This document shows, in pieces, positions 779 through 5,963 of a stretch of DNA of 64,000 nt. The notes under the pieces are model-generated. The model saw nothing but the letters and a program-made list of their open reading frames with translations, had not been told where the DNA came from and searched no databases. Position 1 is the stretch's first letter, and every line of letters starts with the position of its first letter. Made by a program: the position numbers and the translations under genes. Origin of the DNA: Pseudomonadota bacterium (lineage in GTDB: Bacteria; Desulfobacterota; Desulfobulbia; Desulfobulbales; JAGXFP01); contig JAHJAA010000020.1 of NCBI GenBank assembly GCA_018814305.1, positions 62,001 to 126,000 on the forward strand. The letters are read 5' to 3'.

Positions 779-3283
779 ATGAGTGAGCGCATAGCCCAGG
801 CCCTGAGTAGGCTTTTTGACAAACACCGTATCGTCTTCTGGCACGATGCTGATAAGGAACTGCGTGCTGATTTTGAGGCTCTGCATCTGCCGGATATTAC
901 CAAGGTAGAGCTCAACAACAACGAGTTTGCGGTGAAGCATCGGATACTCCGCGAGCTACCAGAGCAGAAGTTTCTCCTCTACCGCGAAGGACCGCAACCT
1001 GCTGACTTGGACAACTGGTTGCTGGATGTGCAGCTGGCCCACGGTGAGTTTCAAACCGATCAAGCAGCCCTCCATCTGAGTGAACTCGAATTACCCCTGG
1101 AATTTGCCGAGCTTGTCCGGCAGCACCTTGATTTTTTCACAGCCGCGAAACGCCGGGAGGCCTTAAAAAAGCTCCTGAAACCTGATGATCAACCGCGACA
1201 GATTCGGCTCAAGATCCTGGCGGTGTGTGCCGGCCCCGGGGCAGAGGCGAGGCTGGATTCGATCCTGGAGTTTTTGCTGGCTGAATTGGCCGAGGATCGG
1301 GAAGAGAAGATCAAGCTGATCGGCCGTTGCGGGCTGGACAAGTATCTCTGGGAACAGACTGAACGGCTCTATGGCTATGAATCGAAAACCCCCGGGATTC
1401 GCGATTTCGCCATCGAGCTGTTCAAATCCTGCTACCGGATGGAACTTGGTGAGTCATCTCTTCTGAACAGCGAAGCCCTGGTTTTTCTCAAACGTTGGAA
1501 GGACAGTATCCGCCATCGCGCCACTTTCGAAAAGTTGTCCGACGATTGCGCCGATGTGTTGGGGATAGAAAAGGATCTGCAGCAGCGGGATTATCGACAG
1601 CTTCTGGACCTGGATTTCTTCCGCCTTATTGAACAGAAGATCATCTCTGACCTGGTCAACAGCTTGGCCAGTCGAACCTTGGCTGCTGGTGAGTGTGCCA
1701 CCCTCATTCGTGCCCGCCGACAGAGTCATTGGCATCAAGGCTATAGCGATATCTATGAAGCCATTGATTATGCCGCCCGGATTTTCTCAGAATTGGAAAC
1801 CGTTCACCTGCAAATTGATTCACTGGCTGACGGCGTGGAGCGCTATGTAGCTAACTGGTACCGCATCGATCAACTCTATCGGAAGTTTGTCTTTCATGCC
1901 CGGCAATCCGGAGAACCTTCGCTACTTGGTAAACTCATCACCATGGTTGAGGATCTCTATACCAACAACTACTTGCGCCGGGTGAACGATAAATGGCAGG
2001 AGCAGGTTGACCTTTGTGTAGAGTGGCGCAGTGCCGGCGTGGTTCGCCAGGACGGTTTCTTCCGAAAATGGGTGGCCCCTTTTCTCAAAGAGCAAAAGAA
2101 GGTTTCGGTGATCATTTCTGATGCCTTGCGCTACGAAATTGGCGAGGAACTGGTGAGTCTGATCCGGCGCGAGGATCGATACGATGCCGTGGTCGCTCCG
2201 ATGTTGACCTTGCTGCCAAGCTACACCCAACTGGGAATGGCAGCCTTATTGCCCCACCAGACACTGAGCTTTGCCCCAAACGACACAGGGGCTGTTCTGG
2301 TTGATGGCGTGAGTTCGCAAGGAACCCCCAATCGCTGCAAAATTCTGGCTCAGGGAATCAAGGCCCGGGGGGCGGTGGTGAAAGCCGACGAGCTGCTGGC
2401 GATGGACAAGGATGGGTGTCGGACCTTATTCCGTGATCATGATGTGGTCTATATCTACCATAATCGGATCGATGCAACTGGAGATGACCGCAAGACCGAG
2501 GAGCAGGTTTTCGGGGCGGTTGAAGAAGCGCTGGCTGAGCTGATTAAAGTCGTCAAAAAGCTTACGGCGGCCAATGCTACCAACCTCCTGGTTACTGCCG
2601 ACCACGGCTTTATCTACCAGAACCGGCCAATTCCCGAGAGTGATTTTACCGACATTGAAGCCAAAGACGAGTTGGTGTTGTATCGTGACCGCCGTTTCTT
2701 ACTTGGTAAAGGAATAAACGAACATGCCAGTCTAAAGAAATTCTCCAGCCAGGCCGTTGGCCTTACGGGGGAGATGGAAATTCAGTTACCGAAATCAATC
2801 AACCGTCTGCGGCTGCAAGGATCAGGGAGCCGTTATGTCCATGGCGGTGCCGCCTTGCAAGAGGTGGTTGTGCCGGTCGTTTCAATCAATAAGAAGCGCC
2901 GCAGTGACACAGGCAAGGTTGAGGTCGAGATCCTGCAAAGCGGCAATCAGTTAATCTCCTCCGGACAATTGGCAGTGGCCTTCTACCAGACTTTACCGGT
3001 CAGCAGCAAGATTCAGCCGAGAATATTGCGGGCAGGGATTTATGACCAGGGTGACCAGTTGATTTCCGACAGTCAAACCTTGAATTTTGATTCCGTCTCT
3101 GAAAATCCCCGTGATCGCGAGTTCAAGGTCAGATTTGTGATGTCTAGAAAAGCAGACGAAGCAAACAACCAAGATGTCAATTTGAAACTTGAGGAACAGT
3201 TGCCAGGGACCTCGCATTTTAGAGAGTACAAATCTTTGCGGTACACCCTGCGCCGGTCATTCACCAGCGACTTTGAGCTTTAG
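779..3283 (+). CDS. pglZ: BREX type 1 PglZ
   Basis: An 834-residue protein of the usual size for BREX-1 PglZ, a core component of the BREX phage-exclusion system, which methylates self DNA and blocks phage DNA replication. The opening matches the family (FDKHRIVFWHDADKELR). The central alkaline-phosphatase-superfamily PglZ domain shows VSVIISDALRYEIGEEL near residue 440 and the metal-site stretch LLVTADHGFIYQ near residue 605. The start ATG follows AAAGGATGTTGGA. The gene ends 6 bases before brxL, so the two are co-transcribed. The other core genes (brxA, brxB, brxC, pglX) are expected upstream, outside the window. Family assignment is firm; the role in the complex is family knowledge. Confidence 0.95.
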   Translation: MSERIAQALSRLFDKHRIVFWHDADKELRADFEALHLPDITKVELNNNEFAVKHRILRELPEQKFLLYREGPQPADLDNWLLDVQLAHGEFQTDQAALHLSELELPLEFAELVRQHLDFFTAAKRREALKKLLKPDDQPRQIRLKILAVCAGPGAEARLDSILEFLLAELAEDREEKIKLIGRCGLDKYLWEQTERLYGYESKTPGIRDFAIELFKSCYRMELGESSLLNSEALVFLKRWKDSIRHRATFEKLSDDCADVLGIEKDLQQRDYRQLLDLDFFRLIEQKIISDLVNSLASRTLAAGECATLIRARRQSHWHQGYSDIYEAIDYAARIFSELETVHLQIDSLADGVERYVANWYRIDQLYRKFVFHARQSGEPSLLGKLITMVEDLYTNNYLRRVNDKWQEQVDLCVEWRSAGVVRQDGFFRKWVAPFLKEQKKVSVIISDALRYEIGEELVSLIRREDRYDAVVAPMLTLLPSYTQLGMAALLPHQTLSFAPNDTGAVLVDGVSSQGTPNRCKILAQGIKARGAVVKADELLAMDKDGCRTLFRDHDVVYIYHNRIDATGDDRKTEEQVFGAVEEALAELIKVVKKLTAANATNLLVTADHGFIYQNRPIPESDFTDIEAKDELVLYRDRRFLLGKGINEHASLKKFSSQAVGLTGEMEIQLPKSINRLRLQGSGSRYVHGGAALQEVVVPVVSINKKRRSDTGKVEVEILQSGNQLISSGQLAVAFYQTLPVSSKIQPRILRAGIYDQGDQLISDSQTLNFDSVSENPRDREFKVRFVMSRKADEANNQDVNLKLEEQLPGTSHFREYKSLRYTLRRSFTSDFEL

Positions 3284-3289
3284 AGGAAT

Positions 3290-5347
3290 ATGGGAACGAT
3301 GAATGAACTTGACCAAAAGATAGTTGAATATTTTCCGGGATTGGTGGTCAGAAAAGACCTTGTAAAAATAGTTAAGGGCAATGCCATTGTACCTTCCTAT
3401 GTTCTTGAATATCTCCTTGGGCAGTATTGCGCCACGGCTGACGAGCCCAGCATAAAGTCTGGAATTGAAACTGTTAAGGAAATTCTCCGAAAACATTACG
3501 TCCACCGGAATGAAGCCGGGCTTGTTAAGTCGATCATTAAGGAAAAAGGGCGGCACAAGGTAATAGACAAGATCGGTGTTGACCTGAATGACAAAGCTGG
3601 GACCTATGAGGCATCATTCTCTAACTTGGGGATCAGTAAGGTACTTGTCTCCGTTGATACTATTAAAAAACATCCTAAGCTTTTAGTTGGCGGGGTCTGG
3701 TGCATTGCCGAACTGGGATATGAACATCTTGACGACCCAAAGGCCAGCCCATGGGTGATGGAATCGATAAAGCCGATTCAACTTTCCCACTTCGACTATG
3801 ACGGCTATCTGGCGGCAAGAAAAAAATTCACTACGGATGAGTGGATTGATCTTCTTCTGCAAAGTATCGGGTTCAATCCCGAGATGTTCGGCAAACGCAG
3901 TAAGCTGTTACAACTTGTCCGGCTTATCCCTTACTGCGAGAGAAATTACAACCTGATCGAACTTGGGCCCAAGGGGACTGGAAAATCCCATATTTATTCT
4001 GAATTCTCTCCACACGGCATACTCATTTCAGGTGGTGAGGTTACGGTGCCCAAGCTTTTCGTTAATAACAGTAATGGGAAACTTGGCTTGGTGGGCTACT
4101 GGGACGCAGTTGCCTTTGACGAATTTGCTGGCAAGAAGAAAAAGCCCAACAAGGCCCTGGTCGACATCATGAAAAACTACATGGCCAACAAGACTTTCTC
4201 GCGAGGCGTGGAGACACTGGGAGCCGAGGCATCCATGGTTTTTGTCGGCAACACGCAGAACCCTTTACCTTACATGTTGAAACACACAGATCTTTTCGAT
4301 GAATTGCCTGATGCATATCACGATTCAGCCTTTCTGGATCGGTTGCATTTTTACATCCCCGGCTGGGAAGTGGACATCATCCGGGGAGAGATGTTCTCTG
4401 AAGGGTACGGCTTTGTCGTTGACTATCTGGCCGAGATCCTCCGGACCATGCGAAACCATGACTTTTCCCATTTTTACGCGGACCACTTTGATCTACTGAG
4501 TGACATTTCCACCCGGGATCGCGATGCGGTAAATAAGACTTTTAGTGGGCTGGTGAAAATTCTGTTCCCACACCAAGAAGCATCGACCGAAGAGCTGGAA
4601 GATGTCTTGAAGTTTGCCATTGAAGGAAGGAAGCGGATTAAAGACCAGCTGTTTCGGATCGATCAGACGTATGAGCCGGTTCGGTTTGGCTATAAGGTCC
4701 AAGGTGAGGATACTGTGAACCTGATTAAGACCTTGGAAGAAACACAATATCCCCAACATTATTATAAAGGCTTCAATCCGCCTGAGGATGCTGGGCAGGC
4801 CGAGCAGTCAGAAGTCCAACCGACAGCAACGGCAGCAGAGAGTACGGAGGAAATACTCAAAGAACAACATCTAACCTTTCAAGAGAATCAGCGGGGGCTG
4901 AGTTACGACAACCTTTTCGGCAAGTATCTGCAAGGGGCGAGCAAGATTACGATCACAGACCCGTATATTCGGCTCTTTTACCAAGCCCGCAACATGATGG
5001 AATTTCTCGAAACCGTTGCTAAATTCAAGTCAGACGATGCCGTGGTGGATGTCACTTTGGTTACTGTTGAGGACGAGTTTAAGGGCGATGCCCAAAAAGA
5101 TTTCCTTCAACAGATGCAGATGAGTGTCCAATCGGCCGGAATCAGGTTTTCCTGGGAATTCGACAAATCTGGATCAGCCCATGCCCGACATATTGTTATC
5201 GATACCGGCTGGAAGATCCTCCTTGATCGAGGATTAGATATCTTCCAGCACTACGACATGAATGAAGCATTCTCAATAAATAACAGGATACAGGATTTTC
5301 GAGCCTGCAAGGCATTTGAAGTGACCTTCCTCCTCATGAATAATTAA
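3290..5347 (+). CDS. brxL: BrxL AAA+ ATPase with a MIT_C-like C-terminal domain
   Basis: A 685-residue BREX protein following pglZ by 6 bases. The N-terminal part (VEYFPGLVVRKDLV, LEYLLGQYCA) and the AAA+ core with Walker A GPKGTGKSH near residue 228 are typical of BrxL, an oligomeric DNA-associated ATPase needed for phage restriction. After a low-complexity linker (about 500-527), residues 528-685 do not look like a Lon protease domain. The pattern RGLSYDNLFGKYLQGA, ITDPYIRLFYQARN, LVTVEDEF, GIRFSWEFD, RHIVIDTGWKI and GLDIFQ resembles the MIT_C phospholipase D-like domain of eukaryotic MITD1. ATG 3290 has GAGG just upstream; ATG 3299 is an alternative. The C-terminal call rests on remembered motifs. 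Confidence 0.92.
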   Translation: MGTMNELDQKIVEYFPGLVVRKDLVKIVKGNAIVPSYVLEYLLGQYCATADEPSIKSGIETVKEILRKHYVHRNEAGLVKSIIKEKGRHKVIDKIGVDLNDKAGTYEASFSNLGISKVLVSVDTIKKHPKLLVGGVWCIAELGYEHLDDPKASPWVMESIKPIQLSHFDYDGYLAARKKFTTDEWIDLLLQSIGFNPEMFGKRSKLLQLVRLIPYCERNYNLIELGPKGTGKSHIYSEFSPHGILISGGEVTVPKLFVNNSNGKLGLVGYWDAVAFDEFAGKKKKPNKALVDIMKNYMANKTFSRGVETLGAEASMVFVGNTQNPLPYMLKHTDLFDELPDAYHDSAFLDRLHFYIPGWEVDIIRGEMFSEGYGFVVDYLAEILRTMRNHDFSHFYADHFDLLSDISTRDRDAVNKTFSGLVKILFPHQEASTEELEDVLKFAIEGRKRIKDQLFRIDQTYEPVRFGYKVQGEDTVNLIKTLEETQYPQHYYKGFNPPEDAGQAEQSEVQPTATAAESTEEILKEQHLTFQENQRGLSYDNLFGKYLQGASKITITDPYIRLFYQARNMMEFLETVAKFKSDDAVVDVTLVTVEDEFKGDAQKDFLQQMQMSVQSAGIRFSWEFDKSGSAHARHIVIDTGWKILLDRGLDIFQHYDMNEAFSINNRIQDFRACKAFEVTFLLMNN

Positions 5348-5359
5348 TGGACTTAATAC

Positions 5360-5479
5360 ATGGATGAGTTTGATGATGGGCTCGACTTACTTGATGATGA
5401 TGGAGATGGAGTTGTAGAGACTTGTCTTCTTGAGGAAGAAGATAAGGGTAAAGAAAAAAAAACCACGGTTGCTGTGTAA
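5360..5479 (+). CDS. Tiny acidic ORF after brxL (39 aa)
   Basis: Begins 12 bases after the brxL stop with ATG and runs 39 codons to TAA. The product opens MDEFDDGLDLLDDDGDGVVE and ends with a Lys-rich tail. The first two thirds are dense in Asp/Glu, which could mimic DNA charge or bind metal. There is no strong ribosome-binding site, although translation could be coupled to brxL. It may be a last small gene of the BREX operon or a chance ORF; no family is recognised. Confidence 0.35.
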   Translation: MDEFDDGLDLLDDDGDGVVETCLLEEEDKGKEKKTTVAV

Positions 5480-5590
5480 TTTTTTTGGTATTGGGATCTT
5501 CCGCCCTAATATCAATCTGGGGTATGATAAGAATATTATCATAATGGTTAGGTCCCAACCATAAGTGGTGATTCCTATCGTGGATTATTT

Positions 5591-5640
5591 GAATCTTCCT
5601 AATCTTGGAGTCGCAGGTTCAATTCCTACTGGGACCACCA
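5591..5640 (+). other. tRNA-Arg(CCU) 3'-half remnant; candidate attachment site
   Basis: The stretch carries an anticodon loop TTCCTAA (anticodon CCU), a variable region, a T arm with TTCAATT between GCAGG and CCTAC, and an acceptor end TGGGACC-ACCA. This is the 3' half of a bacterial tRNA-Arg(CCU). The bases upstream do not form a D arm, although GGTCCCA at 5551 could pair with the acceptor end; the span of 90 bases is too long for this tRNA. Integrases commonly use tRNA 3' ends and leave such copies at island borders, so this probably marks the right edge of the BREX island. Confidence 0.6.
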
Positions 5641-5700
5641 AAGAGCATTGAGGTTTACTTGTTTTGGGGAGGTCGAATTGAGTAAAAACAGAATATTTTA

Positions 5701-5730
5701 GCCATTTGTTACCCATGCGTTACCCAAAAC
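5701..5730. repeat. Short direct repeat GTTACCCA beside the tRNA remnant
   Basis: GTTACCCA occurs at 5708-5715 and again at 5719-5726, about 70 bases past the tRNA-Arg remnant. Such short direct repeats next to an att core resemble integrase arm-type sites. No integrase gene is visible in the window, so this is inference. Confidence 0.25.
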
Positions 5731-5765
5731 AAAAAAGCACCTAGCCGTTTTCCGGCTAGGTGCTT
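5731..5765 (-). terminator. Intrinsic terminator of tRNA-Lys
   Basis: A perfect 13-bp stem (AAGCACCTAGCCG with its complement) and a 5-base loop. On the minus strand it is followed by TTTTTTGTTTT. It lies 8 bases beyond the 3' end of tRNA-Lys and is oriented to stop its transcription. Confidence 0.85.
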
Positions 5766-5773
5766 GATCTTCC

Positions 5774-5849
5774 TGGTGGGCCATCCCGGACTCGAACCGG
5801 AAACCTGCTGATTAAGAGTCAGATGCTCTACCAATTGAGCTAATGGCCC
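5774..5849 (-). tRNA. tRNA-Lys(CUU)
   Basis: Reading the minus strand gives a complete 76-base cloverleaf: acceptor GGGCCAT pairing with ATGGCCC, D arm with AGCTCAATTGGTAGAGC, anticodon loop CTCTTAA with anticodon CUU, T arm with GGTTCGAGTCC, discriminator A and an encoded CCA. An intrinsic terminator follows and a tandem repeat lies on its 5' side. Confidence 0.97.
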
Positions 5850-5854
5850 GAATT

Positions 5855-5963
5855 CACCCTTGCGGGTATACATTGCGTACGAGCAGACAGGCTGCTCAAC
5901 TCAGCTTTTCACCCTTCGGGTATAAGTTTCGTACGAGCAGACGAGCTGCTCAACTCAGCTTTA
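5855..5963. repeat. Two tandem ~54-bp repeat units upstream of tRNA-Lys
   Basis: Two adjacent imperfect copies, 5855-5909 and 5910-5963. Each begins CACCCTTCGGGTATA-like, contains GTACGAGCAGAC and ends GCTGCTCAACTCAGCTTT. Each unit contains two small inverted repeats (ACCC..GGGT and GAGCAG..CTGCTC). They occupy the 5' flank of tRNA-Lys, so they may be a processed leader or remnants of a tandem duplication. No gene is visible here. Confidence 0.7.

Follow-up and report, generated by a model that had tools for sequence, protein, structure and literature searches.

The end of this type I BREX cluster, where a stretch resembling the 3' end of tRNA-Arg(CCU) lies just before a tRNA-Lys(CTT) gene, raises the questions of (i) whether that stretch is a displaced tRNA half left behind by an integrating element; (ii) whether such an element brought the BREX genes; and (iii) where the intact tRNA-Arg(CCU) gene and the integrase belonging to it might be. 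The window, by which we mean the whole stretch of 64,000 nucleotides that was analysed, corresponds to C70:62001-126000 in a draft genome of 4.15 Mb (92 contigs, 96.7% complete). The features around the remnant are collected in Table 1.

Table 1. Features at the right end of the BREX cluster, in window coordinates; + and - give the strand.
Feature	Position	Strand	Basis
pglZ (type I BREX)	779..3283	+	PADLOC PglZ, 1072 bits
brxL (type I BREX)	3290..5347	+	PADLOC BrxL, 1123 bits
Residual frame, after brxL, of a small acidic protein whose tail is hydrophobic; frame change at an A run	5360..5544	+	Comparison by eye
CTGTGTAATT, one copy, 124 bases upstream of the crossover	5472..5481	+	One exact occurrence in 146 kb, both strands
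GGTCCCA, exact partner of the acceptor 3' strand TGGGACC (5630-5636)	5551..5557	+	Sequence, chance estimate, comparison with other remnants
38 bases in place of tRNA positions 8-31	5558..5595	+	Alignment versus shuffles; last 8 bases are TTTGAATC
tRNA-Arg(CCU) 3' half, probable attachment half-site	5596..5640	+	16-gene alignment, covariance model, 23 other remnants
Tandem direct repeat TGGGTAAC-GCA-TGGGTAAC, period 11, 47 bases downstream of tRNA-Lys	5708..5726	-	Flank comparison
Terminator-like hairpin after tRNA-Lys, 13-base arms	5735..5765	-	Similar hairpins in relatives, by eye
Intact host gene for tRNA-Lys(CTT), bordering the inserted interval on the right	5774..5849	-	ARAGORN; typA neighbour in G002 and, by eye, in G033

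The original prediction, a displaced tRNA-Arg(CCU) 3' end without a D arm between the BREX genes and tRNA-Lys, was borne out by alignment, covariance model and blastn alike. In an alignment to 16 intact tRNA-Arg(CCU) genes from the same order, the remnant corresponds to tRNA positions 32 to 76, so that its first base is the start of the anticodon loop and its end is the CCA. It is identical to the consensus of these genes at 39 of 45 bases, while the 16 genes taken singly match it at 34 to 40 bases. The D arm and the 5' strand of the anticodon stem are absent; tRNA positions 8-31 have no counterpart, and the 38 bases found in their place align with the normal stretch no better than shuffled sequences do and contain no D-arm residue by the same comparison. 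A covariance model built from the 16 intact genes (R1) scored 34.9 bits on the remnant stretch (E 8e-9, 501 bases searched) and 27.4 bits when 176,592 bases were searched (E 2.4e-4), with an E value of 0.0056 in a search of the whole genome. Furthermore, blastn with the 321 bases 5540-5860 matched intact tRNA-Arg(CCU) genes of four genomes (G022, G031, G039 and G049) with 84-89% identity over 45-49 bases (best E 4e-11). These scores place the likeness well beyond chance.

We do not expect the remnant to work as a tRNA. A functional tRNA-Arg(CCU) has four arms, including a D arm and an anticodon stem, which 5551-5640 does not provide. By eye, the T stem of the remnant carries one C-A mismatch and the anticodon stem is unable to form, from which it follows that these 45 bases are not a working tRNA gene. 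Neither ARAGORN nor the Rfam tRNA model called a tRNA at 5551-5640, the neighbouring tRNA-Lys(CTT) being the sole call there. A minus-strand match to the Rfam family 'Plastid-ycf2' fell under its cut-off and was set aside as mere tRNA resemblance.

The remnant lies at the border of DNA that a relative lacks. While tRNA-Lys(CTT) is followed by typA and the mur cluster after 1.8 kb in G002, a member of the same family, about 35 kb separate tRNA-Lys(CTT) from typA here, which places the remnant at the right edge of the extra DNA; in G033, a typA frame (named by eye) is found less than 6 kb after tRNA-Lys. Part of the extra DNA is the BREX cluster itself, which spans C70:47,617-67,347 and has the complete type I gene set of brxA, brxB, brxC, pglX, pglZ and brxL. 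Its genes are ordered brxA, brxB, brxC, a gene for a Schlafen/AlbA protein, pglX, Shedu SduA, NsnA/NsnB-like genes, a frame without a Pfam match, pglZ and brxL. The cluster is preceded by genes for a radical-SAM protein, glycosyltransferases, a thioesterase, a subtilase and others, and before these by typA and the mraZ-mur-ftsZ cluster, both named from the gene order in the relative G002 and from sequence. The Shedu SduA and NsnA/NsnB-like genes, nested between pglX and pglZ at G000:C70:58096-61611, lie to the left of the window.

At its other end, the BREX-side DNA can be followed beyond brxL. A frame similar to that of the small acidic protein listed in Table 1 is whole in L275, and variants are seen in L277 and L274 (by eye), so that its remains carry the BREX-side DNA to 5544, 6 bases before GGTCCCA. 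This protein may be an undescribed BREX companion; a term search of the BREX survey PMC12839542 gave no mention of a small, transmembrane or acidic protein, or of one downstream of BrxL. Among 13 BrxL relatives read, the 12 with 449-1503 bases of downstream DNA have no tRNA after brxL. In a longer stretch of one BrxL relative (L348), brxL and a tRNA-Cys are several kb apart, and no integrase was matched. Finding this remnant at the same position in a genome that lacks BREX had been named as an observation that would speak against an island border; no such remnant was found at the loci of 13 relatives from other genera in which tRNA-Lys lies near a glutamate synthase gene: the best scores there were near those of shuffled DNA or fell on tRNA-Lys, and the highest (30 in L069, versus 25 for shuffled DNA) was not beside tRNA-Lys.

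An intact tRNA-Arg and an integrase had been expected to the left, and neither was found on the contig. The 67.6 kb of contig to the left of the remnant contain no tRNA-Arg of any kind; the only tRNAs there (Thr, Gly, Tyr and Thr) all fall within the contig's first 800 bases. In a tblastn search of 146 kb of the contig, with five tyrosine integrases and one serine recombinase fragment as queries, the best E value was 0.07. Several of these queries find one another at E < 1e-4, and the one from tRNA-Leu matched no other locus, so that a distantly related integrase could have gone undetected. Among those proteins of the interval that were scanned against Pfam, none was an integrase, and no repeat of the right edge was present at the left side beyond the length found in shuffled sequence.

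The draft as a whole was searched for the intact partner as well. With RF00005, 43 tRNA genes were detected, each of which could be assigned an anticodon, and only Ile-GAT, Ala-TGC and Arg-CCT are missing from the set. Ile-GAT and Ala-TGC usually lie in rRNA operons, which drafts lose. Neither RF00005 nor the Arg(CCT) covariance model revealed an intact tRNA-Arg(CCU) in this 96.7%-complete draft; the best genome score of the latter was 79.2 bits, at tRNA-Arg(TCG), compared with 108.4 bits for an intact gene that is itself in the training set. Within the order, 119 of the 148 genomes that are at least 90% complete match the 3' pattern of tRNA-Arg(CCT), be it in an intact gene or in a remnant, and the match in the present genome is the remnant. 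The absence of tRNA-Arg(CCT) is unusual in the order, not unique, and the neighbourhood of tRNA-Arg(CCU) is not constant among the nearest relatives. A genome can tolerate the loss of tRNA-Arg(CCU) provided that AGG is read through wobble by tRNA-Arg(UCU).

Similar tRNA-Arg(CCU) halves recur in the order. Pattern searches of the fetched loci yielded 62 distinct intact copies and 24 remnants, the present one included; as the loci were picked from genomes with two or more pattern matches, these numbers are counts and not rates. At least 100 bases upstream were required for a remnant to be counted, and the remnant at a contig end in L322 was excluded; the second copy in L329, whose 3' part is damaged, was retained among the 24. 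In six of the 24 remnants, again including the present one, the departure from the normal gene falls exactly at position 32, and in 18 of 24 the likeness extends 1 to 6 bases further, an agreement in start base that is partly built in because the search pattern itself starts at position 32 and misses fragments starting further right. Several remnants lie on the same strand as an intact copy: the two are 4.5 kb apart in G002, about 10.9 kb apart in G051, and 9.6 kb apart in G190, with a tyrosine integrase (Pfam Phage_integrase gene) between them. In G191, remnants lie at 1.0 and 6.6 kb from the intact gene, on the same strand, in a tandem array with a tyrosine integrase between them. The recurrence of remnants whose first base is this one or lies up to 6 bases upstream, several of them beside an intact copy, points to the present remnant being the attachment half-site of a tyrosine-recombinase element.

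The bases that precede the crossover can be compared with the ends of two of these elements. The 8 bases TTTGAATC recur with 8 of 8 matches in L335 (+1262) and with 7 of 8 in L336. The L336 element, found in G190, resembles the present locus in its tRNA-Arg(CCU) site, in a remnant starting from position 32 and in the TTGAATC before the crossover; it differs in that the intact tRNA is present, along with a tyrosine integrase and with tandem repeats at either end, and no BREX genes were noticed among its frames. Its type of element end carries CTGTGTAATT as a repeat unit, the L335 and L336 copies of which lie about 137 and 148 bases before the crossover, mostly with one mismatch. The single copy here is suggestive only as an element-end repeat unit, and it may be due to chance, as it falls within the coding region of the BREX-side small protein and was sought after the fact. 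With up to 3 mismatches, the 3' half occurs in one of 257 genomes of the order, which is the present genome. Viral contigs gave no match to pieces of the remnant or to its 5' part, and phage and plasmid records gave only short blastn matches, mostly to tRNA 3' ends.

Two of the loci fetched for these comparisons contain small elements that deserve separate mention. In G002, the intact tRNA-Arg(CCU) and its displaced 3' half flank a TOTE primase-helicase and an AbiE pair (L196:6532-11130); no integrase match was obtained in this 4.5-kb interval, and the TOTE/AbiE defence cassette may move with a borrowed integrase. In L337 (G191:C1:597000-607000), two small elements are arrayed at tRNA-Arg(CCU), the first of which, about 1 kb long, has no integrase and only one gene, NYN-like by eye.

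The neighbouring tRNA-Lys(CTT) offers another assignment, namely that it is the site of the island, with the Arg(CCU) half arriving as a passenger of the inserted DNA, for instance as an attP or as a stray tRNA gene of a mobile element; we consider this a serious possibility, somewhat short of even. In its favour is the tandem repeat downstream of tRNA-Lys, which likely represents the arm-type sites of a lost element in tRNA-Lys. Period-11 repeats at 46-47 bases are found also after tRNA-Phe, tRNA-Thr(CGT) and tRNA-Arg(ACG), giving 4 of the 38 flanks of the genome in all versus a mean of 0.012 and a maximum of 1 in a shuffled control (1000 rounds), and this shared layout makes tRNA-Lys perhaps an integration site too, although the offset and period tested were picked after 12 of the 38 flanks had been seen to have some tandem repeat of at least 7 bases. 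Across the order, tandem repeats of 7 bases or more and a period of 10-13 are found in 4 of 37 distinct tRNA-Lys(CTT) flanks, the present one included. Repeats of this kind can accompany integrases: period-12 repeats after tRNA-Ala(CGC) and tRNA-Leu(TAA) of the present genome have integrase-like frames directly after them (by eye), the one after tRNA-Ala(CGC) being a weak match to other integrases, and the tRNA in G190 has a period-11 repeat 45 bases downstream, with the integrase following it. The acceptor stem of the remnant, moreover, is unlike those of the 16 aligned genes, as would be expected of a foreign tRNA. Against tRNA-Lys as the site, however, no integrase was seen by eye in about 1.5 kb after the three other tRNAs that share the layout, the DNA retrieved downstream of tRNA-Lys in three other genomes with such repeats (12.6, 3.9 and 1.5 kb) gave no integrase match, and no displaced tRNA-Lys 3' half was found on 146 kb of the contig. 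The claim that the remnant is the distal att site of the BREX island stands in part: the displaced half does lie at the right edge of the extra DNA, but the assignment is one of two, as tRNA-Lys(CTT) may be an integration site as well.

The acceptor bases bear on the remaining alternatives. The suggestion that GGTCCCA could pair with the acceptor end holds for 7 of 7 pairs, and the acceptor bases of both strands deviate from the order's consensus yet pair completely. An exact partner is expected by chance within 60 positions in about 0.26% of cases, and none of the 23 other remnants has one between -100 and -20. GGTCCCA probably represents a genuine tRNA gene 5' end, with chance as a possible alternative, and it suggests either a foreign tRNA gene as the source of the fragment or the former presence of more of the gene at this place. 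As such a partner is unexpected at a simple displaced half, it counts against the attachment half-site. It would fit a whole tRNA-Arg gene formerly present here, whose middle (positions 8-31) was replaced or scrambled, which would make the remnant a decayed pseudogene and not a displaced half; R1 likewise aligns to 5551-5640 over its full length. We nevertheless regard this as unlikely, given that the likeness ends at the very base where 5 other remnants also stop, that the bases before the crossover match two element ends (L335 and L336), that the internal 38 bases have kept nothing of a D arm, and that tRNA-Arg(CCT) is beside tRNA-Lys in none of the 13 relatives' loci. A chance or convergent T-arm-like sequence, finally, might be entertained, as T arms of tRNAs are common and the phage and plasmid matches are short (at most 43 bases among the matches listed), but the 45-base match runs through the loop, the anticodon, the variable region and the CCA at the E values given above, and we attach next to no weight to it.

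A GTTACCC repeat considered as an arm of the Arg element was dropped, because, read from the other strand, its fixed distance after tRNA-Lys fits better. In viral contigs, GTTACCC matched once, within a coding frame; the piece of phage-like contig concerned had no tRNA, and the match was taken as chance. Elsewhere in the genome there is a further displaced tRNA half, a tRNA-Phe 3' fragment about 0.95 kb after tRNA-Arg(TCG) (L300, G000:C66:78628-78706), which is accompanied by the same hairpin and tandem repeat as the intact tRNA-Phe.

Taken as an attachment half-site left by a mobile element at the edge of inserted DNA, which we hold to be the probable explanation, the remnant would have arisen when a tyrosine recombinase integrated the element into a tRNA gene. 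With a crossover in the anticodon loop, the element's own 3' half would have restored the gene, while the old 3' half would have been moved to the far end of the element, where the present tRNA-Arg(CCU) half, starting at position 32, would be its trace. The BREX genes would be the last cargo before the element's end at this point, and the loss or relocation of its integrase and left attachment site would since have made it immobile. If tRNA-Lys(CTT) served as a second integration site at the same place, as it perhaps did, the locus would be a decayed composite hot spot. Its best reading is that of a dead, composite tRNA-integration hot spot that is ordinary in kind. That BREX arrived with that very element we put at about one half.

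A bolder version would have the BREX element enter the host's sole tRNA-Arg(CCU) gene without restoring it, so that the isoacceptor was lost and AGG came to be read by tRNA-Arg(UCU); the defence island would then have been acquired at the price of a host tRNA. We think this very improbable. Bolder still, the leftover would be transcribed and act as a decoy for a tRNA-cutting effector, an idea that draws on the acceptor ends, which still pair, and on the Schlafen/AlbA-domain protein in the BREX cluster.

Displaced tRNA ends of this type are well represented among known islands. According to PMC4383910, the Islander table comprises 3919 islands, of which 3760 have a 3' fragment and 2083 an anticodon-centred site, and tandem arrays are described. 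The present locus resembles such islands in its displaced tRNA 3' fragment and in its crossover in the anticodon loop. It has the tRNA end fragment at one end, and its extra DNA is missing from a relative (G002) at the same locus. Islander also requires the intact cognate tRNA and an integrase; in contrast to such islands, no intact cognate tRNA was found here at the other end in the right orientation and distance (contig to the left; draft) and no tyrosine integrase inside the interval (tblastn on 146 kb; Pfam on part of the proteins), and the fragment has a 5' acceptor partner.

PMC9897764 describes mobile-element integration as a widely occurring source of tRNA fragments and such scars as common. 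An example is the island PYG1, which has a 90-bp partial copy of Gln-TTG with a 44-bp repeat, and in another case the partial and full tRNA copies were moved about 179 kb apart by inversion. A split of that kind would explain the missing partner here. These cases resemble ours in being tRNA 3' fragments from mobile-element integration, whereas their full copy is present in the genome. In tRNA-dependent lysogeny, as outlined in PMC10865867, a tRNA gene is likewise the site, and the present draft, which shows no intact gene for the isoacceptor, resembles it in this as well; those phages, in contrast, carry a replacement tRNA, whereas no working tRNA of that isoacceptor supplied by an element was found in the draft. 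Titles and abstract openings in the literature revealed no treatment of this locus.

The remnant leaves general ideas unchanged. It shows the end of one BREX cluster, which is probably located in a decayed tRNA hot spot, with tRNA-Lys on one side and typA on the other. Within the order, tRNA-Arg(CCU) is a recurrent integration site that is cut in or just before the anticodon loop, and this helps to locate the borders of other defence islands in the order.
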